Below are positions 18,944 through 60,303 of a stretch of 60,303 nt of DNA, one piece after another. Made by a program: the position numbers and the translations under genes. The notes below the pieces were generated by a model that worked only from the letters and a program-made list of their open reading frames with translations, did not search any database and was not told where the DNA came from. Positions within the stretch are counted from its first letter, which is position 1. Each line of letters begins with the position of its first letter. The DNA is from Anaerolineae bacterium (GTDB lineage Bacteria > Chloroflexota > Anaerolineae > Aggregatilineales > Phototrophicaceae): assembly GCA_025454525.1 (NCBI GenBank), contig JALOOG010000018.1, positions 1 to 60,303 on the forward strand, written 5' to 3'.

Positions 18944-21796
18944 TCATAACCGTTTCATAGACACCACCGGTTCACGGGCAAGCATTTTTCGTAAGATCGA
19001 AAAATCGGGTAAATCAAGCGCTTGGGCGATCGCGTGATCGATGGCGGCGCGAACCGGATCGCGATCGATTTGCGGGAAGGGTTTTAAATCTTCTTGCATT
19101 AAGCGATCATAAGCCGCCGCGAATTGATCCAATTGCGTCTCGCTCAAACTGCGTAAATCTAAGACAGGCATCGTTAAGAGGGTGGTTTTTTTAAATTTGA
19201 CCCATGCTCCATGCGTTTCAGCCCGTTCGGTTAAGGCGATGATGATCGAAAAAACCGAGTTTAACCACAAAACCAAGGCCTTTTCATAACGTGGATCGTT
19301 AAATTCGGGTTTAAACCGAAATGACCACCAAGTGCTGGATAAGACATCTTCCGCTACTTTGACCGAAAACAGTCGTTGGCTGTTGACCCGTAAGCGTTCC
19401 GCGATCAATATGCTGCCTGCAAGCTTCCAGAGCGATTCAACACTTTTTAAGCGTCGGGTCGGCTTGGCATGGGACAGCGGTTGCAAAAAGCTATTCGGGG
19501 TTTGAGTTAATCTCAACACCGCTTGACTATCATGCCCCCAAAAGGCCGGAAATGGCGTGGCATAATCGACTTTTTGAAAACCGTCGGCAATATCACGCGC
19601 ATCGGGGCCCAGTGTGCCTAGATCACACAACTGACACAGTTTAAAACCGTTCTTTTGACCATACCCCGGTAGCCATAACTTGCCCTTAAGCAAGTGATAA
19701 GCGACTCGTGCTAAGTCAACATGAGCGAAGGCACACGGCAAAAACCAATCTTTTTGTAACTCTTCCCATGCGACTTGAATCACTTCACCGGCCTTTTGGC
19801 CATTCATCTTTAAATGATGAGCGCCTTGTCCGGTGATAAAATCCGGCGGATGTAATTGGTCTAGATCCGCGTTTAAGGATAAGGCCTGTAAAGAGGTGGT
19901 GGGGTTATGCCAAAGATTGATGATCGTGGTTTGATGCCCTTGCGGGGCTTTTCCGTTTTGGTTACGGGTAGCGATCAACATCACTTCGCTTAATTCGGTG
20001 CTTTCGGAAAAATTCCACCGCTCCGCATCATGACTCACGATCACATAATCCAGATGATATTTTTGGTTGATCAATTCGCGGGTTTTTGCCCAAGATACCC
20101 CCGAAAGTAGCGCTTTGGGTAAGATCAACGCCAGTTGACCCCCTTCTTTCAGATAACGATCCCCGATCGCCACGAATACAGATCCCAATCCGGCCGTAAG
20201 GTTGGCTTTGGCCCCGGTTTCGCGGATCAGCCGTTGTAAACGTTCTTGCATGTCAGGGCGTTCAGGCATCGATCCAAATAACAAGTTTCCGCCGACACTA
20301 CGGACAAACGGCGGATTCATGACACACAGATCCAAGGTGGGCAATGGCGCGGCGATCACGGTTTCATCGCCTTGTCCGGTGACTTGATGACCATATTTGA
20401 GCGCCCCAAAGCTATCGAAAGGCATTTGCACCGCTTGCCCTTGTAAAAATTCAATACTCCCCAACCGATGAAACAGGCCCCCAATCGGTAAAGAAAACAG
20501 GTTCATTTTTTTCAAGGGAACATCTGGGATTCGCATACTTAAGGTAGAGGCAGTGAGATGAATCGCCGATGACAAGACATCGTAACCGTACAAGACCTCT
20601 TCGGCCACTGCTTTATGAAGTGCGGGCAGCTTTTTGAGTCGTCGGGGGTGGGCAGCATTGGCCTGAATATAATGATCGGTGATTGCCTCGGCCGTAGCGC
20701 TAAGCAACGTCCCCGTACCACAGGCTAAATCGGCAATGCGTAATTGTGCGATTTGTTGGGGGTTTGTCCAATCCACTTTCTGTTTATGTAGAGCCAATTT
20801 AAGCAAGATCGAGGCGGCGGGAATACTGGTGTAATAGGTGCCAAGGTACTTTGCTTCAGACAACAACCGATGATAAACCCGCCCCATTAAGTCATGACGT
20901 AAAGCGGCCCCCATGGCGGTAATGTGTTCAGCCGCGATCAACATCCGATGCACGGCCGCATCACCCGAAAAACGGATCATTGGGCTTTCGGATAACACGG
21001 TAGCGGCAATCGCAAAAATCGCATAATAATTGACATGCTGTAGAATGTATGACCAAGCCCGCGCCAAGTTAGGGTACATATAATCGGGGCCGATCTCTGG
21101 GTTATTCCGGTTGATGAAGGTGTCGAGTCGTGGAATTTTACGATTTTGTTTGGATAACATGCCATGAAACAACACCGCATTCATCAAGATCAAACCCGCA
21201 ATGCGAACCGTGGCCCCGACTTTTTCTGGGGGTAGCTCATCGGTTTCTTCAAAGGTTTCAGCTACCCCCATCGCGATCATTAAACGATCACGATAAGCCG
21301 GATAGACCGCTACTGCTTGGGCATAACGCTCCACGCAGGTATCGATAAGCTCAACGCACCTAGCAACTTCATCATCATTCAGCCATTCGTTAAATGAGGT
21401 ATTTAAGGAACGCACCAAGTAATCAATATCACCGGCGGTATAATTGATTTTTTCAGTGTGCGAGACAATCGCAACTTTGTAATGTGCAACGGCCATCGCT
21501 GCTTTTAAGCTTGAAAATTCGGCATTTCGCAAATGTTCGGGGTAAACCACCGCGATCCCAATATGAGCGATCCCACTTTCCACACGACGACGAGCGGCCT
21601 CTAATGCTTTGGCTTGTGCTTGTGGCCCTTCAATCTCGCCTTCAATAGCGGTGCGTAGACCCTCATAGATCACCAACACATCGGGCATGTGGCGTGTTTC
21701 GCTTAATTCCAAAATATTTTCGGGCGCAGCCACGACCCCGCGATCTTTTAACAATTCGGCTAACACCACATTTAATACTTCTTGTCGTTGTGCCAT
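18944..21796 (-). CDS. Stand-alone N6-adenine DNA methyltransferase, possibly fused to a nuclease-like domain
   Basis: A 950-residue protein. The MTase core shows motif I DLACGTGT at 356-363 (S-adenosylmethionine binding) preceded by LGTYYTSIPAASILL, and motif IV NPPF at 494-497, the adenine-N6 catalytic motif of the HsdM/type IIG class. The C-terminal ~350 residues would hold target recognition. The N-terminus has a PD...(E)xE arrangement (P38-D39, E54, E56, then AAR helices) that resembles a PD-(D/E)XK nuclease but lacks the usual Lys, so cleavage activity is doubtful. No hsdS, hsdR or BREX/DISARM partner is adjacent. The start at 21796 is chosen for AAGGAG 6 bases upstream; a longer frame to 21922 lacks an RBS. 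It could be a type IIG-like defence enzyme or an orphan regulator. Confidence 0.85.
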   Translation of the reverse strand: MAQRQEVLNVVLAELLKDRGVVAAPENILELSETRHMPDVLVIYEGLRTAIEGEIEGPQAQAKALEAARRRVESGIAHIGIAVVYPEHLRNAEFSSLKAAMAVAHYKVAIVSHTEKINYTAGDIDYLVRSLNTSFNEWLNDDEVARCVELIDTCVERYAQAVAVYPAYRDRLMIAMGVAETFEETDELPPEKVGATVRIAGLILMNAVLFHGMLSKQNRKIPRLDTFINRNNPEIGPDYMYPNLARAWSYILQHVNYYAIFAIAATVLSESPMIRFSGDAAVHRMLIAAEHITAMGAALRHDLMGRVYHRLLSEAKYLGTYYTSIPAASILLKLALHKQKVDWTNPQQIAQLRIADLACGTGTLLSATAEAITDHYIQANAAHPRRLKKLPALHKAVAEEVLYGYDVLSSAIHLTASTLSMRIPDVPLKKMNLFSLPIGGLFHRLGSIEFLQGQAVQMPFDSFGALKYGHQVTGQGDETVIAAPLPTLDLCVMNPPFVRSVGGNLLFGSMPERPDMQERLQRLIRETGAKANLTAGLGSVFVAIGDRYLKEGGQLALILPKALLSGVSWAKTRELINQKYHLDYVIVSHDAERWNFSESTELSEVMLIATRNQNGKAPQGHQTTIINLWHNPTTSLQALSLNADLDQLHPPDFITGQGAHHLKMNGQKAGEVIQVAWEELQKDWFLPCAFAHVDLARVAYHLLKGKLWLPGYGQKNGFKLCQLCDLGTLGPDARDIADGFQKVDYATPFPAFWGHDSQAVLRLTQTPNSFLQPLSHAKPTRRLKSVESLWKLAGSILIAERLRVNSQRLFSVKVAEDVLSSTWWSFRFKPEFNDPRYEKALVLWLNSVFSIIIALTERAETHGAWVKFKKTTLLTMPVLDLRSLSETQLDQFAAAYDRLMQEDLKPFPQIDRDPVRAAIDHAIAQALDLPDFSILRKMLAREPVVSMKRL

Positions 21797-21963
21797 AAAC
21801 GCTCCTTGTACAACCGTTCTAAAGTATAATCGATTCAAGGACATTTGGCGAAGCTTAAGGATCTCGAATTTTAAGCGCGTGCGTGTTAAAATATGCGCCA
21901 TGCAACCGCCCGTCGCTTGCATACGTATAAAAAAATAAGGCGGGATTTGGGAGATAAAACGCC

Positions 21964-28459: not shown

Positions 28460-28484
28460 ACGGGCAGTCTTAACATCTGCCCGT
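28460..28484. terminator. Hairpin between convergent genes
   Basis: Perfect 8-bp stem ACGGGCAG (28460-28467) / CTGCCCGT (28477-28484) with a 9-nt loop, lying between the thioesterase stop and the SH3-like protein stop. No T tract. Confidence 0.6.
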
Positions 28485-28495
28485 AACATCATTCC

Positions 28496-29128
28496 CTAGG
28501 GCAAGGGTAACTCTCGTAAAACATAACGACAATTGGGTAACATATCGACATAAGTTTGGGGAATCCAACCTATCGATTCAACCTCACTAGTAGAGTAAAC
28601 TTGATACCAATTCATATAAAAGCCTAAGACTCCCAACGTTTGACCTTGCACCAACTCAATACCCTCTTTAGGGGGATAATTTGAACCTGGTCCAAGGGAC
28701 AAGAAACCACGGACAATTCGCACTGTGGCTGGACAACTCCCATCAAGAATCGCCAAAGTTGGCGTAGGGGTGACGGAAGGCGTAAACGTAAAAGAGGGGT
28801 AAGGGGTTGGGGTTGTAAAAACCGTGGCTGTTTCGGTTAATGTTATGCTGGGAGTCAGTGTAAGGGTCTCAGTGAAGGTTGCACTGGCTTGTGGAGTGAG
28901 CAAGGTTGCTGTAAGCGTAAGATTCACCTGTTCCGTTTGTGTTGATGCAACAGCAGTAATAGACATAGTTAATTGATTTATATTTGAGTGATTTGTTATT
29001 GTAAGCCCAAAAAGAATGACCACAATCACATAAAGAAAAATAATTGCGCCATTAATGATCTTTTTATGATTTTGAATCGCTAAAAGCTCCCTTTTTTCTT
29101 TAGAAACCGGTTGTTGATTGTCACTCAT
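28496..29128 (-). CDS. Membrane-anchored SH3-like domain protein (operon gene 3)
   Basis: A 210-residue protein: cytoplasmic head, one transmembrane helix (~25-47), a Thr/Pro/Ser-rich spacer (~60-135, TLTLTPSITLTETATVF...TPTPYPSFTFTPSVTPTP), then a bacterial SH3b-like domain (VRIVRGFLSLGPGSNYP, VLGFYMNWYQVYSTSEVESIGWIPQTYVDML). SH3b domains bind cell-wall peptides or other surface partners. ATG at 29128 is preferred over a longer frame. It is the last of three minus-strand genes with similar anchoring. It has fewer GATC sites than flanking housekeeping genes. Confidence 0.75.
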   Translation of the reverse strand: MSDNQQPVSKEKRELLAIQNHKKIINGAIIFLYVIVVILFGLTITNHSNINQLTMSITAVASTQTEQVNLTLTATLLTPQASATFTETLTLTPSITLTETATVFTTPTPYPSFTFTPSVTPTPTLAILDGSCPATVRIVRGFLSLGPGSNYPPKEGIELVQGQTLGVLGFYMNWYQVYSTSEVESIGWIPQTYVDMLPNCRYVLRELPLP

Positions 29129-29215
29129 GGTTAATCTCACTGTGTTGGTTTTCAATAGAGTATAACGGAATCTAAAAAAGTGGTAAGGGGGCAAATGGCC
29201 CCCTTTTCCTATCAC

Positions 29216-31516
29216 CTACCTGATCGTGATTCCCAAGGTATTAGGCTGGAGATTGGTAAAACCTTTGCTCGCAAGATCCAAAGAATAACTCAAAGTGTAC
29301 GTGCTTGGTGTAAGTAAAACCTGACTACTATTCATCAAATCGAAATTGAATTCAATCGTCCCTACTTGAGTCGATTGTGAAAATTGATATGGCACTATAT
29401 ACCGCCCTACCTGATGACCATTGGCATCTGTTACTACAATTACCAAGGGAATGTTATTGCTCGAAACCCAATTAGCATCATCCAGATCTAGAACTACAAA
29501 TTTAATCGGCATTCCCGTCGGGCTATTAAACGGAAATGCTGTAGGTTGCCCTAAAATGGGTGTAACGATATTGGCAACATCCCGAACCATGAGCGTACAT
29601 TGAGTCGTGACAGATAAATTTAGCAGATTGCCATTCGGAAAACTTGGATTAATGGCAAAATTGACCGAGCCACTCGTCATGTTGTTCGTTTCATTATAAC
29701 TATAATTCCAGCCTTGGGCGGATACCAGCGACACCAAGGATGTTTGTGGGACACCATTTCTTGTAAAGTTCCAGTTCAAATTGATCTGGCTCTGCAAGGG
29801 CGTTAAATTGGTTGGAGATCCAGCAATGTTCAATCCTATCGAGATGTTCCATGAGTCACCAGGATAAAAAGAACCATTTCTAGCTGGTGTCGGGCAGTTC
29901 AAACCCGTGTAATTGAGCTGGGTTAGGCTCAGCGGTGCAGTGACATTCGGAAGTGCGATCTGAATGCCATCAGCAGCCATTAATTGAAAATTCAATTGTG
30001 TGAGATCATGATACAAGGGATAAAACAACGTCTCATACCAAGAGGCGGTAGGATCAAGCCTTAATATTTCCGACTGACATTGGTTAGAGGCACTAGTACG
30101 ACAAGCGGCCATTGAAATACTAAAATTTGCCGCGCTAGGAACAGTCGGTATTGGGGTAAATTTGACAATGGCCTTAATTTCTTCATATTGATAGAAATTT
30201 GTCACCGATTGCCAAACTCCTAGATTTTGAGCGTTATAAGTGGCATGAGGCATTAAAAACACATCCGCTTTCACCGCTTCTAGCGCCACATACACTCCCC
30301 CATAACTTGAGGTGCTGACATTATTCACATTCGGCGAATTGATCGCGCCGATGATGACCCGATAAGGCTCAGGCAGATCAAAATCTCGTTTAAAAAATGC
30401 GAATGAGGTTGGAGTCATTAGAAAACGTTCATTGGCCTTTTCAACCGGATGGATCAACAGATCCATGCTGCTAAACACTGACAATTGTTTTAGCAAAAGT
30501 GGAAACTGATAGGAATTATCGAAAGTATCAAGCCTACTATCCGAATTAAAGGCTAAATATTGGATATTAGTCGGTAGGTAAGGAGAAGCATCGACGATGC
30601 GATCGATCAGGTGAGTCAATACCGGACTCAAACGCTCATCAAAACCACGTTGCGTTGGCGGTTGAAAATGGAGTTGATGATCCCGATATTGAACAATTTG
30701 TAGCCAAGAGTCCTGAAAATAGGTCGAATAGACATCCCCCGCGACCAATAGGTAACGTTGAACATCTACCCCTTGTAGATCCCCGGCCACACCCTCTAAA
30801 TGTCTATGGATTGCTGACAAATCCCAACTAACATTGCTACAAGGGCTAAACTCACCACAGGCCAATCCATCCGAGATATAGATCAGGTTATCGTAATGGG
30901 GATTACCGGTAAGATGATCATTTAACAGTGTCAGTGCCGCTTGCGTGGCGCGTTGATAATTTGCGCCTTGTGTATTACAGAATAAAATATTACAACTAGA
31001 TTCCACTTCCTGTACGATGTTTGGAATATTTTGAGCAAGATCCAGATCGCGTAACGAGATCCAAGGGACATCACGTCGACCGTTTTGTAGATCGAACGTC
31101 AAGGTGGTTGGTTGCTCATTAAAGTAGATCACCCCAAAGCTCAATCCGATGTTAGCCCCTTCTTGATTAAAGAAGCTTTGAAGATCCGCTAAATATTGGA
31201 TATTTCGGGCTAATGCACTACTACGAAACATGGGGTCAGGATCTATCTTGTCCGTATCCATGTTAACAGATTGCGAAACCATAAAAACAAACCGAATTTC
31301 ATTGACTCGATCTACGGAATTAATGGGGGGGGCGATCGGTTGATTGACCTCTGGCGCTATCATGCTAGGGGTTTGCGTGTTCGTTTGCAAAGAGAAAAAA
31401 ATGAGTAATAATAAGCTTAACGTCACTGTAATGCTAATAATCATACGGACGTTAAACATCCCAGACACTTTTGCGGTTTCAGTGGTGATTTTTGGCTTTA
31501 AAACTTCTTGAGTCAT
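29216..31516 (-). CDS. Large membrane-anchored vWA-like protein (operon gene 2)
   Basis: A 766-residue protein: N-terminal tail, one transmembrane helix (~25-43), then an extracytoplasmic part. Residues ~74-300 look like a von Willebrand A fold: beta strand IRFVFMVSQSVNMD, then ...ATQAALTLLNDHLTG..NLIYISDGL (~205-235). The MIDAS DxSxS is altered: the Asp position is M79, with S81 and S83 retained, so metal binding may be lost. The middle and C-terminal parts are beta-rich with Ig-like character (LNLSVTTQCTLMV, VVTDANGHQVGRYIVPY). Its first codons begin 4 bases after the upstream SH3-like gene, indicating an operon. Function unknown; an adhesion or surface-assembly role is inferred from the fold. 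Confidence 0.72.
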   Translation of the reverse strand: MTQEVLKPKITTETAKVSGMFNVRMIISITVTLSLLLLIFFSLQTNTQTPSMIAPEVNQPIAPPINSVDRVNEIRFVFMVSQSVNMDTDKIDPDPMFRSSALARNIQYLADLQSFFNQEGANIGLSFGVIYFNEQPTTLTFDLQNGRRDVPWISLRDLDLAQNIPNIVQEVESSCNILFCNTQGANYQRATQAALTLLNDHLTGNPHYDNLIYISDGLACGEFSPCSNVSWDLSAIHRHLEGVAGDLQGVDVQRYLLVAGDVYSTYFQDSWLQIVQYRDHQLHFQPPTQRGFDERLSPVLTHLIDRIVDASPYLPTNIQYLAFNSDSRLDTFDNSYQFPLLLKQLSVFSSMDLLIHPVEKANERFLMTPTSFAFFKRDFDLPEPYRVIIGAINSPNVNNVSTSSYGGVYVALEAVKADVFLMPHATYNAQNLGVWQSVTNFYQYEEIKAIVKFTPIPTVPSAANFSISMAACRTSASNQCQSEILRLDPTASWYETLFYPLYHDLTQLNFQLMAADGIQIALPNVTAPLSLTQLNYTGLNCPTPARNGSFYPGDSWNISIGLNIAGSPTNLTPLQSQINLNWNFTRNGVPQTSLVSLVSAQGWNYSYNETNNMTSGSVNFAINPSFPNGNLLNLSVTTQCTLMVRDVANIVTPILGQPTAFPFNSPTGMPIKFVVLDLDDANWVSSNNIPLVIVVTDANGHQVGRYIVPYQFSQSTQVGTIEFNFDLMNSSQVLLTPSTYTLSYSLDLASKGFTNLQPNTLGITIR

Positions 31517-31520
31517 CTGT

Positions 31521-32249
31521 TTAATTCTCCGGTGTGTTTAGATTTGAAGGTGAAATCGGGATTGGCATACCGTCTTTACAAACAGTGGGTGTAGACACGA
31601 ATGTCTCACTGATCCAGCCTTGGAATCCGTTAACAGCTATCCACAACCAATTTCTATCAGGTGATATATAAATGACCTGTAAGGGAGTGGCATTCACTAA
31701 GATTAGTTCTGATGGAAGTAAGACTCTGACTCCTTGTTCATTATACAAGTAATCTAATTGTGTGATGATGAGATAAACGCTACACCGCGGAGTTGGGGTA
31801 GGCGTGGGGGTAATTGTCGGGGTAGAAGTCGCCGTTGGTATGGTTGCGGTTGCGCTTGGCGTTAAGGTATGAGTTAAGGTTGCGCTCGGCGTGACGGTTG
31901 GTAAATGAGTAGCTGATGGTATAGAGGTTGCAGTTTCAACAGGTGTTGGAGTAGGCGGACAACACGGTGGTGTTGAACTAGAGTTTAGGGTAAATCCTAA
32001 CACTACAACCAGAGTAACAACGCTTATGACACGTTCACGTAAGGTATCAATCTCGCCAAAGGCCGCGGCGACTGCTATTATTAAACAAAGCGGTATAAAA
32101 ATAGCATTCGCAACTCTAAAACGAGTATCCTCGTCGGGTAAACTAAATAAATAATATAATATTACAATAATTACACCACATGCCGCGATAAATAACACCA
32201 CGTCCAATGTGTTTTTAAACAGATTTTGTCGAATGGATGCGATAGTCAT
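31521..32249 (-). CDS. Membrane protein with SH3-like C-terminus (operon gene 1)
   Basis: A 242-residue protein with three N-terminal hydrophobic helices (~15-37, ~45-65, ~70-90), a CCPP motif, a Thr/Pro-rich spacer (~92-155), and a C-terminal SH3-like segment ([44 protein letters not shown]). It resembles the third gene of the operon in layout. It is the first of the three genes; no strong SD is visible at the ATG. Function unknown. Confidence 0.7.
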
Positions 32250-50681: not shown

Positions 50682-50714
50682 GATACGCTGAGTGTGATGT
50701 AAAGGATAAACGAG

Positions 50715-52079
50715 ATGTTGACCTCAATACACTTAGAAAACTTCAAAAGTTGGCAAGAATTAGAGATCCAACTTGCGCCGATCACCCTGTTATTCGGCAC
50801 AAATAACAGTAGAAAATTCAGCGTTTTACAAGCGTTGTTGATGCTCAAACAGACTGTAAACAGCTTTGATCGTAGTCAGCGACTCAATTTTGGCAGCGAT
50901 GATCACGATTAGGGAGCAGCTAAAAGAGGTGATGAATACCTTTTCCCACTGCCAAGAAACGACAAGCCAAGTGTGGTTGGGCGTATCTCTAAACAGTGAT
51001 AACCCTAAAGGTTTCAAAACACCCCCATACAGAGACTTTTTTACCTATAACGCTCATTGGCAACTGAATCATCTTAAAGAGGTGATTATTACGAAAGTGT
51101 CTATCAAAAAGACATAGAGTATGAAATCAAACTGACTGCAACCGACGACGGGGATTATCACATTGATAAAAACCTAAAACTTCCCCCTCATTTGGAAAGA
51201 TCATCAAAATTTGGAAACTTTGTCCCAAAATCCGACATAGTAACTCTTGACCACTGTTACAAAATAAAAGCTTCACCCTCTTTTGAGATATATCAAGATA
51301 AAGATAAGATTATTGCATTTAACACCATCGAAAACATCAAATTTTCATTTAAATGTTTGATGGCCTCTATTCATTATCTAGCTGCCCTACGATCCTACCC
51401 ACAGCGTAACTACTTATGGCGTGATACTATCCCCCATATCATTGAACCTAGCGGTAAAAATGCGATCGAATTGTTGATCGTATCCACCCATCGTGAGACC
51501 GAACTCTTAGAAAACGTCACGGAATGGATGATCAAACTCGGTTTGATCCAAGACTTAAAGTTAGAAGCACTGGACAAGGAACATCGGTTTTATCAACTGC
51601 AAGTGCAAGTCGCCAATAGCCATAGCGCGCTCTTTGATGTTGGCTTTGGGATCTCGCAAGTGCTACCCGTGATCACACTGTTATTTTTTGCACCAGAGGG
51701 CTCGATTCTCTTGTTAGAACAACCGGAACTTCACTTACACCCTAGAGCGCAAAGCGTTTTAGCAGATCTGATGCTGCATGTGGCCGAAACACGTCACTTA
51801 CAATTGATCGTCGAAAGCCATAGTGAGCATCTGTTGACGCGCTTACAGCGGCGCGTGGCAGAGTCCGAAAATGGGTTTGCAACACCGGACAATGTAAAAG
51901 CCTATTTTTGTCGCATGACCGATCAAGGCGCGCATATTGAGGATGTATGTATGGATCAATATGGGCAAATTCAAAATTATCCCGATAACTTTTTTGGCGA
52001 TAATTCAGGCGATTTAGACGCGCTCACCGATGCTGCCTTAGCGCGGCGGAGAGCAGAACTCCGGCGCAATCAATCATGA
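50715..52079 (+). pseudogene. Broken OLD/AAA-type ATPase with two compensating frameshifts
   Basis: Remnant of an ATPase of the AAA_15/AAA_21 (OLD-like, DUF3696) kind. Frame 0 from the ATG at 50715 (good AAAGGA RBS) reads LENFKSWQELEIQLAPITLLFGTNNS, then stops at 50910-50912. The continuing protein lies in frame +1 from about 50900 to 51115 (LKEVMNTFSHCQETTSQVWLG), then returns to frame 0 to 52079 (DIEYEIKLTATDDGD..., later LLLEQPELHLHP near Walker B and SHSEHLLTRLQRR). The Walker A core, normally GxNxSGKS, reads NNSRKF, so nucleotide binding is lost even without the frameshifts. The compensating shifts may be assembly errors, but the Walker A changes argue for true decay. Confidence 0.8.
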
Positions 52080-52579
52080 GTCGTTATGTTATTGAGACCA
52101 ATGTCTGGGTGATGGCGGCGAAAAGCGGTAAGGTCAACGAGATCTCTGATGAAGCTGAAATTGATGCGACCGAGTTATGTCTGAATTGGTTGCGACAATT
52201 CGCACAATCCCATGATCAAATGGTGGTGGATTCAGCTTTAATCTATCGGATTTTAAAGGAATATCTCCACAATTTAAGAGCGCAGAGCCTAGCGCGGGAT
52301 CTCTTAAACCAATTAGAGCGACAACCGCGTGATCGCATCGTTGATATTGCGATTAAGGTTGATCATGATGGTTATGCTCTTGTCCCCACCCATTTAGCGA
52401 TCGCGGATCGCAATGATCGTAAGTTTATCGCAGTGGTGTTGGGTTGTGCGCCAGATCAACCGCCGATTGTCAACGGCACAGATACCGATTGGGACAAGGA
52501 AAAAGATCGCCTGATCGTGGGTGGGATTGATATCCATGAACTTTGCCCTCATTACATCAGACAAAAGCGAAAATCTTGA
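52076..52579 (+). CDS. PIN-like domain protein coupled to the ATPase gene
   Basis: A 167-residue protein with a PIN-like layout: VIETNVWV at the N-terminus (E at residue ~6 where Asp is usual), E in ILKEYLHN (~63), D in ADRNDRKFIAVVLG (~104-112) and D in NGTDTDWD (~127). These four acidic residues would form the metal site of an RNase, with the first Asp-to-Glu change noteworthy. The start overlaps the ATPase stop (ATGA, 4 bases), so the pair is translationally coupled. ATPase-nuclease pairs of this kind often act in phage defence or toxin-antitoxin roles. It still reads intact although its partner is broken. Confidence 0.72.
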   Translation: MSRYVIETNVWVMAAKSGKVNEISDEAEIDATELCLNWLRQFAQSHDQMVVDSALIYRILKEYLHNLRAQSLARDLLNQLERQPRDRIVDIAIKVDHDGYALVPTHLAIADRNDRKFIAVVLGCAPDQPPIVNGTDTDWDKEKDRLIVGGIDIHELCPHYIRQKRKS

Positions 52580-57572: not shown

Positions 57573-58583
57573 TTACTTAGCGACTTCTACAACCTCAATC
57601 TCAACTTCATTTTCTCCGCCTATAGCATACACAATTTCGTTATCTATTGTCCATGCTGTTCCAATAATGTGTGATTGAGTTTGTACGGAATAGATCAACT
57701 CTTCGGTTTCTATATTCCAAGTTTCTATCATGTTATAACTGATTCCTACGATAAATGTCTCGTGATGTTCCCATAGCAGTTCAATGCTCCCCAAATGAGA
57801 TGATGTAACGGTGATGCTTTTGACCAAATTTCCAGTTGAGGCTTCCCAAATACGAATCTTGGAATCGCTGCTACTGGCAGCAAATTGTTCTCCGTTAGGA
57901 CTCCAAAGTGTTGAGACAAAGTAGTCTTCCCCTTCAAGACTCACCATATATTCTTGTGCTTCGACCTCGGTATTCCATACAAAAATTCTAGAGCCTATAC
58001 TAAATAGCAGAAGTGGATCTGTAGGATGCCAATCGAGGCTATACACACTATTACGTAATCCAAACTCGTGTTCTTGACTCACCATTCCCGTTTCAGTGTC
58101 CCAAATAGTTAGGTAGTGAACGCTAAGCCCAACGATACTGTTTTGATTTCCCGCAGCCAAATAGCGGCCATCAGGACTCCAAGTCACGGCATTGACAAAC
58201 GCACGACTATTTAAAAAGTGGATGATTTCACCTGTGTCGACATCTGCAATCCGTCCAAGGCTATCGGCATGATCGCCGCTAAAACTAATCGCAAGTCGAT
58301 CTCCAAGGGGCGAAAATTCTAGATCACTAAACCTCAAGATCGGATTTGGCCCCTTATCACTCAAATCGGGAGATGTCACTTCGCTCACAAGGCGTTGGGT
58401 CTCTGTTTCATAGATCTCAACGTGCCAATCTGACCACCCTACAGCATAACGGGACCCATCCATGGCTTGTGTAAAAATAACGGTAATTGGTTCTAATACA
58501 TCCTCTTGACCATAAACCACAGTTCCTGATATGAGAATAATGCTAAGCAAAATCACACAAAAATTGATGTTATGGTTCTTCAT
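57573..58583 (-). CDS. Exported WD40-repeat protein
   Basis: A 336-residue protein: signal peptide (residues ~8-25, ending VYGQ), then a beta-propeller of about five to seven WD40-like blades, e.g. FSDLEFSPLGDRLAISFSG, AVTWSPDGRYLAAGNQ, SLDWHPTDPLLLFSIGSRIFVWNTE, TLWSPNGEQFAASSSDSKIRIWEAST. It probably scaffolds other surface proteins. GGAG precedes the ATG. It begins 21 bases after the large upstream protein's stop, so the two form an operon. A/T-richer and GATC-poor (7 GATC in about 1 kb). Confidence 0.85.
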   Translation of the reverse strand: MKNHNINFCVILLSIILISGTVVYGQEDVLEPITVIFTQAMDGSRYAVGWSDWHVEIYETETQRLVSEVTSPDLSDKGPNPILRFSDLEFSPLGDRLAISFSGDHADSLGRIADVDTGEIIHFLNSRAFVNAVTWSPDGRYLAAGNQNSIVGLSVHYLTIWDTETGMVSQEHEFGLRNSVYSLDWHPTDPLLLFSIGSRIFVWNTEVEAQEYMVSLEGEDYFVSTLWSPNGEQFAASSSDSKIRIWEASTGNLVKSITVTSSHLGSIELLWEHHETFIVGISYNMIETWNIETEELIYSVQTQSHIIGTAWTIDNEIVYAIGGENEVEIEVVEVAK

Positions 58584-58604
58584 GAGAATAGCTCCTTTAG
58601 ATAG

Positions 58605-60303
58605 TTAACGTTGATAAAAATAGGGATTGTCGACTCTTTGATAAACGTTGCTGATCCAACGACACGATTGAACCCGATATTGGGCATCTCGTTGTCTATC
58701 AAAAAAGATTACTGGTTGAAGTATCGAGTCAAAAACGGGGTAGTAAATCTCTCGTGGGGAGGGCGTTGATGTCGGGGTGTAATGCGGCGAGCCGATTACC
58801 CACATAAATTCATAGAATTTTGCATTTACTTGACTGTTTAGTAAGGCTGTGAGTGGTGTATCTCCGGTACAGTTGGAAATAACTATGCTAATCTCTTCAG
58901 CATCTGTACCGCTCAATCTGTTGGCGACTTTGCGTTGAAATGAACCTTCACTTGGATCGCAAAGGGTATAGCTTGCAAGTGCATAAGAGGCTAAACAGTT
59001 TTGTTCGTATTGATCGATCACTGTATTGATGATACTATCGGGATCTGCGTAAACCCGATTGTAAAAATCTAAGCGACTCTGAGAATATAAATTGTCTATA
59101 TCTGATGACCACATGGAAGCATTACAGTTGGCGTAATGTTCCAGCCAAGACAAAATTTTAGCATCGTCTTGGGTAAGCAATGCTTCACGATAGGTTAATG
59201 GTGTTCCATTGCTTTCAGGTGGCCAGCAAATTGGTATCATCCATAGCCAATTTGAGTTTACTTCATCTGGATACGAAATTCCATTGATTAATTCACCTTC
59301 GTATTTTTGTGGAGGTCTTGGTTGATTACCCAAAGAACCTTTATAATTAGTGGTAAAGTAAGTGTGGAGCTTATTTGTATCGTATGTCTCTTGCAGTCGC
59401 TCAACATTCAACACCCCATTTATCATCGTCTGAACATCCATTACTAAAGAGGAATTACACCCTAATGTGTTTGCATCATCCCCATGAACCACGCGAAAAA
59501 TGTCAATGTTAGTTGATGGAATTGTCCAACCGCGACTTTGACAACCCACCCCCGCTGGTCGATAGTCTAGGGTTCGTCCTTCGCTAGTTTCGTTAAAAAT
59601 CGCCCAGAACATCGCGGCTTTAATTCCCTGATCTGGACCATTAAAATCGATCCTATCAAGATCAGCCCCAAAGATCGTGACAAGCGTATTAGGAATGTTT
59701 TGTTGTATACCATTACCATCGGTATAGGTAAAGGTATAGTTGCCCAAAATTGGCCCACTATGTCGCGCTTCAACATAATCTGAAACGGTAATCGCCTGCC
59801 CTGCACCAATTTCTACGCCAGTCCAGCGAATACGACTACCGTTATGAAGTCCATTTACTCGTTCTACAAACCCTAAATGTTCAGTGTTGGTATAACTCGC
59901 TTGACCGGCACTGATGACACCAAACAATTGCAGTTCCCAGTTTCGTAAGGGTTGGGTGGTATTGTTATCAATTCGCACTGTAATCTTGATTTTATCTGCA
60001 TATGGGATCGGCGTTGTATCGAGCGGATAAGCTTGTACCGTTGCTGTTCCGCCCACAACATTTGGGCTTACATTTTCTACACTAAATGAGATAACCAGAG
60101 GTGGTAATGGTGTTTCACTAGGCATACGGGTAGGTGTTGGTGTGTGAGTCAGGGTGCGGGTGGGCGTTGGTGTAGGTAGCGGGGTAATCACACCTGAACT
60201 GTAGGCCCAGTCCATATTTCCATCCGTGCGAATGTAGTTTTGGGTGTTATTGACCCGATTTAACGGGCGAAACCGTCCACCATCATGGCGGATCGTTGCT
60301 AAA
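58605..60303 (-). CDS. Large surface protein, 5' end outside the window
   Basis: Partial gene: the frame runs open to the window edge on the minus strand (565 codons visible) and an ATG at 60215 is internal, since coherent protein sequence precedes it. Visible: a Thr/Pro spacer (PTPTPTRTLTHTPTPTRMP), a Ig-like/cohesin-like beta segment (DKIKITVRIDNNTTQPLRNWELQLFG...YTFTYTDGNG), then a ~350-residue domain with several Cys and Trp residues (YRPAGVGCQSRGWTIPS, WLWMIPICWPPES, LEHYANCNASMW). No family recognised. Extracytoplasmic location is inferred. It shares an operon with the WD40 gene. Confidence 0.7.
   Translation of the reverse strand, partial: LATIRHDGGRFRPLNRVNNTQNYIRTDGNMDWAYSSGVITPLPTPTPTRTLTHTPTPTRMPSETPLPPLVISFSVENVSPNVVGGTATVQAYPLDTTPIPYADKIKITVRIDNNTTQPLRNWELQLFGVISAGQASYTNTEHLGFVERVNGLHNGSRIRWTGVEIGAGQAITVSDYVEARHSGPILGNYTFTYTDGNGIQQNIPNTLVTIFGADLDRIDFNGPDQGIKAAMFWAIFNETSEGRTLDYRPAGVGCQSRGWTIPSTNIDIFRVVHGDDANTLGCNSSLVMDVQTMINGVLNVERLQETYDTNKLHTYFTTNYKGSLGNQPRPPQKYEGELINGISYPDEVNSNWLWMIPICWPPESNGTPLTYREALLTQDDAKILSWLEHYANCNASMWSSDIDNLYSQSRLDFYNRVYADPDSIINTVIDQYEQNCLASYALASYTLCDPSEGSFQRKVANRLSGTDAEEISIVISNCTGDTPLTALLNSQVNAKFYEFMWVIGSPHYTPTSTPSPREIYYPVFDSILQPVIFFDRQRDAQYRVQSCRWISNVYQRVDNPYFYQR

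Follow-up and report, generated by a model that had tools for sequence, protein, structure and literature searches.

What kind of assembly is encoded by three neighbouring genes whose products all appear to be anchored in the cell envelope and whose largest member has no relatives at the level of BLAST? We address this question for positions 28496-32249 of contig JALOOG010000018.1 from an Anaerolineae bacterium (assembly GCA_025454525.1); the window analyzed is the whole contig of 60,303 nucleotides, and all coordinates are positions in it. Three co-directional genes lie there on the minus strand. Gene 1 (31521-32249; P0002, 242 amino acids) is predicted to encode three N-terminal transmembrane segments, a Thr/Pro spacer and a C-terminal SH3b domain, gene 2 (29216-31516; P0001, 766 amino acids) a single N-terminal transmembrane anchor, a diverged vWA domain and eight cysteines, and gene 3 (28496-29128; P0003, 210 amino acids) one transmembrane anchor, a Thr/Pro spacer and a probable SH3b end. 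The start of gene 3 was set at the ATG at 29128; the listed open reading frame (ORF) opens at a GTG at 29215. As judged from profile comparisons, the vWA domain of gene 2 likely belongs to the lineage of vWA proteins encoded in operons with the tubulin FtsZ-like 1 (FtsZl1), which we take to be Pfam Tubulin_2 (PF13809).

By BLAST and HMMER gene 2 is an orphan. The first-pass annotation had named lack of conservation of the trio as a refutation of its reading, and for gene 2 this was the outcome: it has no relatives beyond chance in its own genome, in 61 relatives, in 396 genomes of the class (single-protein search) or in 400 genomes of the phylum (profile search), each of the last three counts including the own genome; no genome of its genus turned up among them. 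Nor was anything beyond chance found in genome contigs (two pattern scans), viral contigs, plasmids, phages, PDB, Pfam, NCBIfam, PHROGs or PADLOC; PADLOC, which bears on a defence role, matched none of the three proteins. The sole match in the relatives (G059, E 0.003) was rejected as chance: it contains a stop and coincides in part with a long, presumably UvrD-like ORF of a different frame. Six weak matches in the phylum (E 0.008-0.09, four of the six with stops) were also taken as chance. About 450 C-terminal residues of gene 2 are without detected relatives.

Controlled profile comparisons support the vWA-like domain that had been proposed for gene 2. Aligned by hhalign with six members of the FtsZl1-associated family, gene 2 matched over residues 62-308 (30593-31333, minus strand) at 86% with P 5e-6, and scored 56.9 against 26.8 for the best of 100 shuffles and 20.8 for the reversed sequence. 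Scores above 37 were reached by 12 of 244 ORFs of 300-1300 codons in fetched stretches of the own genome, each of them located at a VWA_2 match and one of them encoding a protein on contig C200. On these scores the six-relative test shows membership of gene 2 among vWA domains, not yet its lineage. With 17 relatives, gene 2 residues 51-330 gave 96.1%, P 2.9e-9 and a score of 65.2 over 219 columns (best of 100 shuffles 24.6), and with 25 relatives the figures were 96.7%, P 3.9e-10 and 74.2 over residues 66-307 (shuffles 25.7). On 11 generic vWA domains of the own genome gene 2 reached 11.8% and a score of 26.9, and on two other vWA sets, one of seven tubulin-fused or tubulin-neighbouring domains (one dropped, having no motif) and one of three domains of the type found on contig C95, 0.2% each. 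All six random eight-member subsets of the family gave 87-96%. In leave-one-out tests every family member (17 of 17) and every generic domain (11 of 11) scored higher on its own profile, also with motif 1 masked, and gene 2 with motif 1 masked still scored 56.9 on the family against 27.0 on the generic profile. The invariant columns of the resulting alignment (A3), in gene 2 numbering, include D94, R98, F132, A190, D216, G217 and P312, and a cysteine pair after the SDG of gene 2 (C-x5-C) resembles the C-x4-C after TDG in two family loci, L223 and L227. The recovery of gene 2 at E 3.5e-63 by a search with A3 is due solely to its presence in that alignment. By profile preference, the vWA domain of gene 2 is closer to the FtsZl1-associated family than to other vWA domains.

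Operons of FtsZl1 and vWA proteins were described in 2010 by Makarova and Koonin (PMC2875224); that paper predicts a role in membrane remodelling and states that the metal ion-dependent adhesion site (MIDAS) is intact in the majority of the vWA proteins. Among titles and abstract openings in the literature we found no experimental study of these operons. The first-pass annotation had recognized no described system at the locus; this has to be amended insofar as the vWA domain prefers the family of those operons (PMC2875224), and holds insofar as the locus is without that system's tubulin. A Tubulin_2 hidden Markov model (HMM) gave no match at E <= 1 among the ORFs of at least 60 codons on this 60-kb contig. 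A VWA_2 scan of the own genome returned 21 matches, 16 of them over the cut-off and gene 2 not among them, and the C200 protein (L115:1540-4350, 937 amino acids) was singled out from these by its layout. On its contig it is accompanied by a vWA/Tubulin_2 fusion and a Tubulin_2 protein (E 4.2e-46), which is the vWA/FtsZl1 arrangement given in PMC2875224. The C200 protein aligns with gene 2 along the vWA domain, and the likeness extends to the Cys after the DG motif. It differs from gene 2 in its intact DQSGSM, in adjoining two Tubulin_2 genes and, by eye, in an N-terminal signal-like segment and a hydrophobic block near the C-terminus. The own genome has three Tubulin_2 matches, two of them on C200 and the third, which is weak, on C95, where a diverged second vWA/Tubulin_2-like locus (L221:3-5871) has frames of 988 and 953 codons.

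Across wider sets, each of which counts the own genome, a single query detected family members in 6 of 298 class genomes, a profile (E <= 0.001) in 85 of 396, and a search of the order (E <= 1e-5) in 9 of 154 genomes. Tubulin_2 accompanies the family vWA gene within the fetched stretch in 18 of 20 cases and in 6 of 9 cases of a second set; five of these loci match by construction, as the HMM was built from them. One of the two exceptions among the 20 (L185) ends at the vWA gene, and among the nine, L223 is a further part of the contig that L222 comes from, and L222 has Tubulin_2. Two genomes of the same order (G798 and G797) encode, upstream of the vWA gene, a Thr/Pro protein together with an anchored protein that has an SH3 end. 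The two SH3 proteins are 40-42% identical; Pfam SH3_3 matches that of G798 below its cut-off (E 0.0015) and gives no match for that of G797. Contig C200 opens inside a homologue of the Thr/Pro protein, so that an SH3 gene at that locus would fall outside the contig. Gene 2 thus has in common with FtsZl1-operon vWA proteins its vWA lineage preference, its anchoring and, considering the two related loci, SH3-ended anchored neighbours. It differs from them in having no FtsZl1/Tubulin_2 gene nearby, replaced MIDAS residues, an N-terminal anchor, no C-terminal helix and a dissimilar C-terminal region; the hydrophobic block and tail seen by eye near the C-terminus of six aligned members are not in gene 2. 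As a separate observation, one 48-kb contig (G797:C317, stretches L222 and L223) carries three family-type vWA matches (E 1.5e-87, 7.9e-69 and 1.1e-11).

The own genome thus holds an intact-motif member beside Tubulin_2 genes, on C200, and two other genomes (G797 and G827) each hold several such vWA genes. This would suit a role of gene 2 in trans on the FtsZl1/vWA machine that the genome already has. As an outer subunit of accessory or decoy type, gene 2 would tune that machine by sitting in the partner site of the intact vWA protein, with no response to metal. We consider this rather unlikely: gene 2 and the family have no C-terminal domains in common, the genes lie on different contigs, and gene 2 is without a close homologue in the searched genomes.

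A number of results weigh against the reading that we favour below, the placing of gene 2 in this family included. Pfam detects no vWA domain in it, a six-member HMMER profile gives it 1.0 bits, a 17-member profile misses it at E <= 1, and single-sequence hhalign with any of 28 domains is weak (best P 0.0097). Residues 311-766 show no similarity to the family. On the family profile generic vWA domains score 50.7-84.1 (25-67 masked), the 65.2 of gene 2 (57 masked) being no higher, and family members stand far above it at 168-415 (143-373 masked). Because generic domains score equally high on the family profile, it is the preference and not the height of the score that carries the lineage claim; only the low generic-profile score and the long alignment set gene 2 apart from generic vWA domains. 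Of 29 family stretches, only two have an SH3 neighbour among ORFs of at least 100 or 150 codons, and genes 1 and 3 have no significant similarity to the SH3 proteins of the G798 and G797 loci. Two single-sequence AlphaFold runs gave models with a predicted local distance difference test score (pLDDT) of 32.7 and 41.0, unusable and too poor to show a vWA or SH3 fold; Foldseek on these poor models returned no match at E <= 0.001 and, by title, no vWA protein among the 50 matches listed. That generic domains equal gene 2 on the family profile, and that the evidence is of the profile-profile kind throughout, would also fit a vWA protein of another, unsampled family whose FtsZl1 likeness is a profile artefact. 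The preference tests, masking, subsets, shuffles and reversed sequence all counter this explanation, and we judge it improbable.

If the family alignment is accepted, the metal site of gene 2 can be read position by position. FVFMVSQSVNM of gene 2 aligns on IVFLVDQSGSM in both aligners, so that motif 1 (31262-31276, minus strand; A3 and hhalign) is SQSVN where the family has DQSGS, that is S81-Q-S83-V-N85, with Asp replaced by Ser, the first Ser kept and the second replaced by Asn. In A3, A185 (30962-30964, minus strand) stands in place of the MIDAS Thr of motif 2, and the Asp of motif 3 is kept as D216 in SDG (30869-30871, minus strand). Across the five positions gene 2 has S-S-N-A-D, against D-S-S-T-D in each of the 17 relatives. 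The first-pass annotation had described the change as MxSxS for DxSxS, which is a register error by two residues, since the MIDAS reads SQSVN and not MVSQS; its broader proposal of an envelope location with an altered vWA metal site is supported. Given the vWA reading, the MIDAS has very likely been lost in gene 2, and the domain would no longer bind metal.

SH3-like ends had also been proposed for the two flanking proteins. By profile evidence gene 1 ends in a bacterial SH3b domain, lying between C156 and C224 (31578-31784, minus strand). Compared with 11 SH3b domains of the own genome, picked by eye, this end gave 94.5% and P 7.4e-8 in hhalign, with a score of 40.5 against 16.2 for the best of 200 shuffles, and an HMM of own-genome SH3 domains matched it at E 9e-10; Pfam SH3_6 stayed below its cut-off (E 0.003), and its eight PDB rows are mixed. 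We would guess that C156 and C224 form a disulphide. The end of gene 3, bracketed by C132 and C200, is probably an SH3b domain too, because Pfam SH3_2 reaches E 0.02, short of its cut-off, and all nine PDB matches (E 0.21-1.5) are to SH3-containing proteins, two rows being so named and the other seven being such proteins as we take it. On the other side, hhalign gave the gene 3 end 9.5% and a score of 18.6, below the shuffle maximum of 24.3, and 3.2% with 13 domains, and the own-genome SH3 HMM had no match at E <= 1. The proposal is therefore secure for gene 1 and only probable for gene 3. Gene 1, and likely gene 3 too, resembles bacterial SH3 domain proteins (Pfam SH3_2, SH3_3, SH3_6) in this end; both differ from them in falling below the Pfam cut-offs, in the bracketing cysteines and, for gene 1, in the three-segment anchor, for which four of 80 other genomes give weak matches (E 4e-4 to 0.003).

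The layout described by the first-pass annotation, three adjacent minus-strand genes that each encode an N-terminal membrane segment, agrees with ORFs and hydropathy, and the Thr/Pro spacers of two of the proteins are plain in the sequence. Hydrophobic windows begin at residues 17, 46 and 74 of gene 1, gene 2 has a single one from residue 25, and gene 3 also has one. Ahead of the first transmembrane segment K/R exceeds D/E in all three proteins (2 vs 1, 4 vs 2 and 5 vs 3 for genes 1 to 3), so the positive-inside rule predicts an outward orientation of their large domains. With vWA and SH3b domains that are anchored and borne on stalks, and with paired cysteines, the trio could form a stand-alone surface adhesion or assembly unit, as the first-pass annotation had proposed, in which the vWA domain binds an external ligand. 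This is unlikely in our view, as the classical adhesive metal-site residues are mostly replaced; moreover no sortase or pilin gene was recognized by eye among the neighbouring ORFs, no dedicated search having been made.

An operon of three had also been proposed. This is clear for genes 1 and 2, which are 4 bases apart; gene 3 follows after 87 bases that contain a terminator-like hairpin (29185-29205, minus strand; terminator scan and fold). The 35 nucleotides around this hairpin fold at -16.5 kcal/mol (z -2.4; 3 of 200 shuffles equally good), and given its position upstream of gene 3, that gene may be a separate transcription unit, which would also tell against the reading favoured below. A second hairpin, followed by TTTCT, lies 3' of gene 3 (28460-28484, minus strand; by fold, not in the terminator-scan list), its surrounding 45 nucleotides folding at -14.4 kcal/mol (z -3.4; 0 of 200 shuffles equally good). 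Terminator-like sites (3 vs 3.6 in shuffles) and promoter-like sites (13 vs 10.3) are about as frequent in the region as in shuffled sequence. The neighbouring SpoU-type gene was present in 39 of 41 genomes. In 20 stretches around it, several of them ended by contig ends (2-6 kb), tblastn at E <= 1e-3 found the thioesterase, the deformylase and the trio proteins in none; one stretch (L094) retains the TPR neighbour.

GATC sites are sparser in the trio, as the first-pass annotation had noted, with 1.4, 11.7 and 1.6 per kb in genes 1, 2 and 3 against a window mean of 17.5, GATC being very frequent in the window as a whole (1055 sites in 1-60303). As the hint of foreign origin for which it had been taken, this sparsity was rejected after synonymous codons were shuffled within each gene: gene 1 has 1 site vs 1.7 expected, gene 2 has 27 vs 17.3 and gene 3 has 1 vs 0.5. 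The low GATC of the SH3 genes is a composition effect. GC content of the trio is 42-43% and GC at third codon positions 0.35-0.42, the latter being 0.50-0.66 in 39 of the 43 other listed genes. At 1.56 the GATC ratio of gene 2 is close to the bottom of the host range (1.54-2.27 in 39 of the 42 other genes tested, 1.15-1.29 in three) and mildly favours long residence. The AT-rich composition, the absent tubulin, the lost MIDAS and the failure to find close copies would fit a decaying remnant of a former FtsZl1 locus without present function. Such decay seems improbable given the intact 766-codon frame, the four-base spacing to gene 1 and the GATC excess over the codon-shuffled expectation.

The explanation that we favour, tentatively and as something short of probable, is an envelope scaffold that works without metal and goes back to the outer half of an FtsZl1/vWA machine. 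Gene 2 would be a side branch, far diverged, of the secreted vWA proteins found with FtsZl1 in genomes of the class; it would have kept the outward vWA domain and lost most metal-binding residues, the C-terminal membrane helix and tail, and the tubulin neighbour. With the two SH3b proteins on their Thr/Pro stalks it would most likely form a static binding or scaffold complex in the cell envelope, in which the SH3b ends would grip a wall or surface polymer or a protein and the vWA face would hold a protein partner without cation switching. If this is true, a vWA relative with neither tubulin nor metal site would allow the role at the outer surface to be viewed apart from the cytoskeletal role and would provide a natural MIDAS variant, and it suggests that parts of such machines may diverge past the reach of BLAST and Pfam. 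More generally, and this we regard as doubtful, the outward half of the machine might be able to detach from its tubulin and give rise to independent, metal-insensitive envelope complexes of a MIDAS-less vWA protein with stalked SH3b proteins, a class invisible to BLAST and Pfam.

Other features of the window lie apart from the trio. A protein at 23418-24809 matches part of a PADLOC model labelled pAgo (E 4.5e-28), and our guess is that it probably has a shared associated domain rather than being an Argonaute. The 992-amino-acid protein at 18944-21922 has N6_Mtase and weak Eco57I matches. At 50703-52579 there is a HEC-03-like defence pair (HEC-03B E 1.7e-71, HEC-03A E 5.9e-12), the first gene of which looks broken, with an AAA-like N-terminal part in another frame (by eye). 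Finally, a second AT-rich, GATC-poor island at 57573-60215 encodes a WD40 protein and a Thr/Pro protein without a Pfam match.

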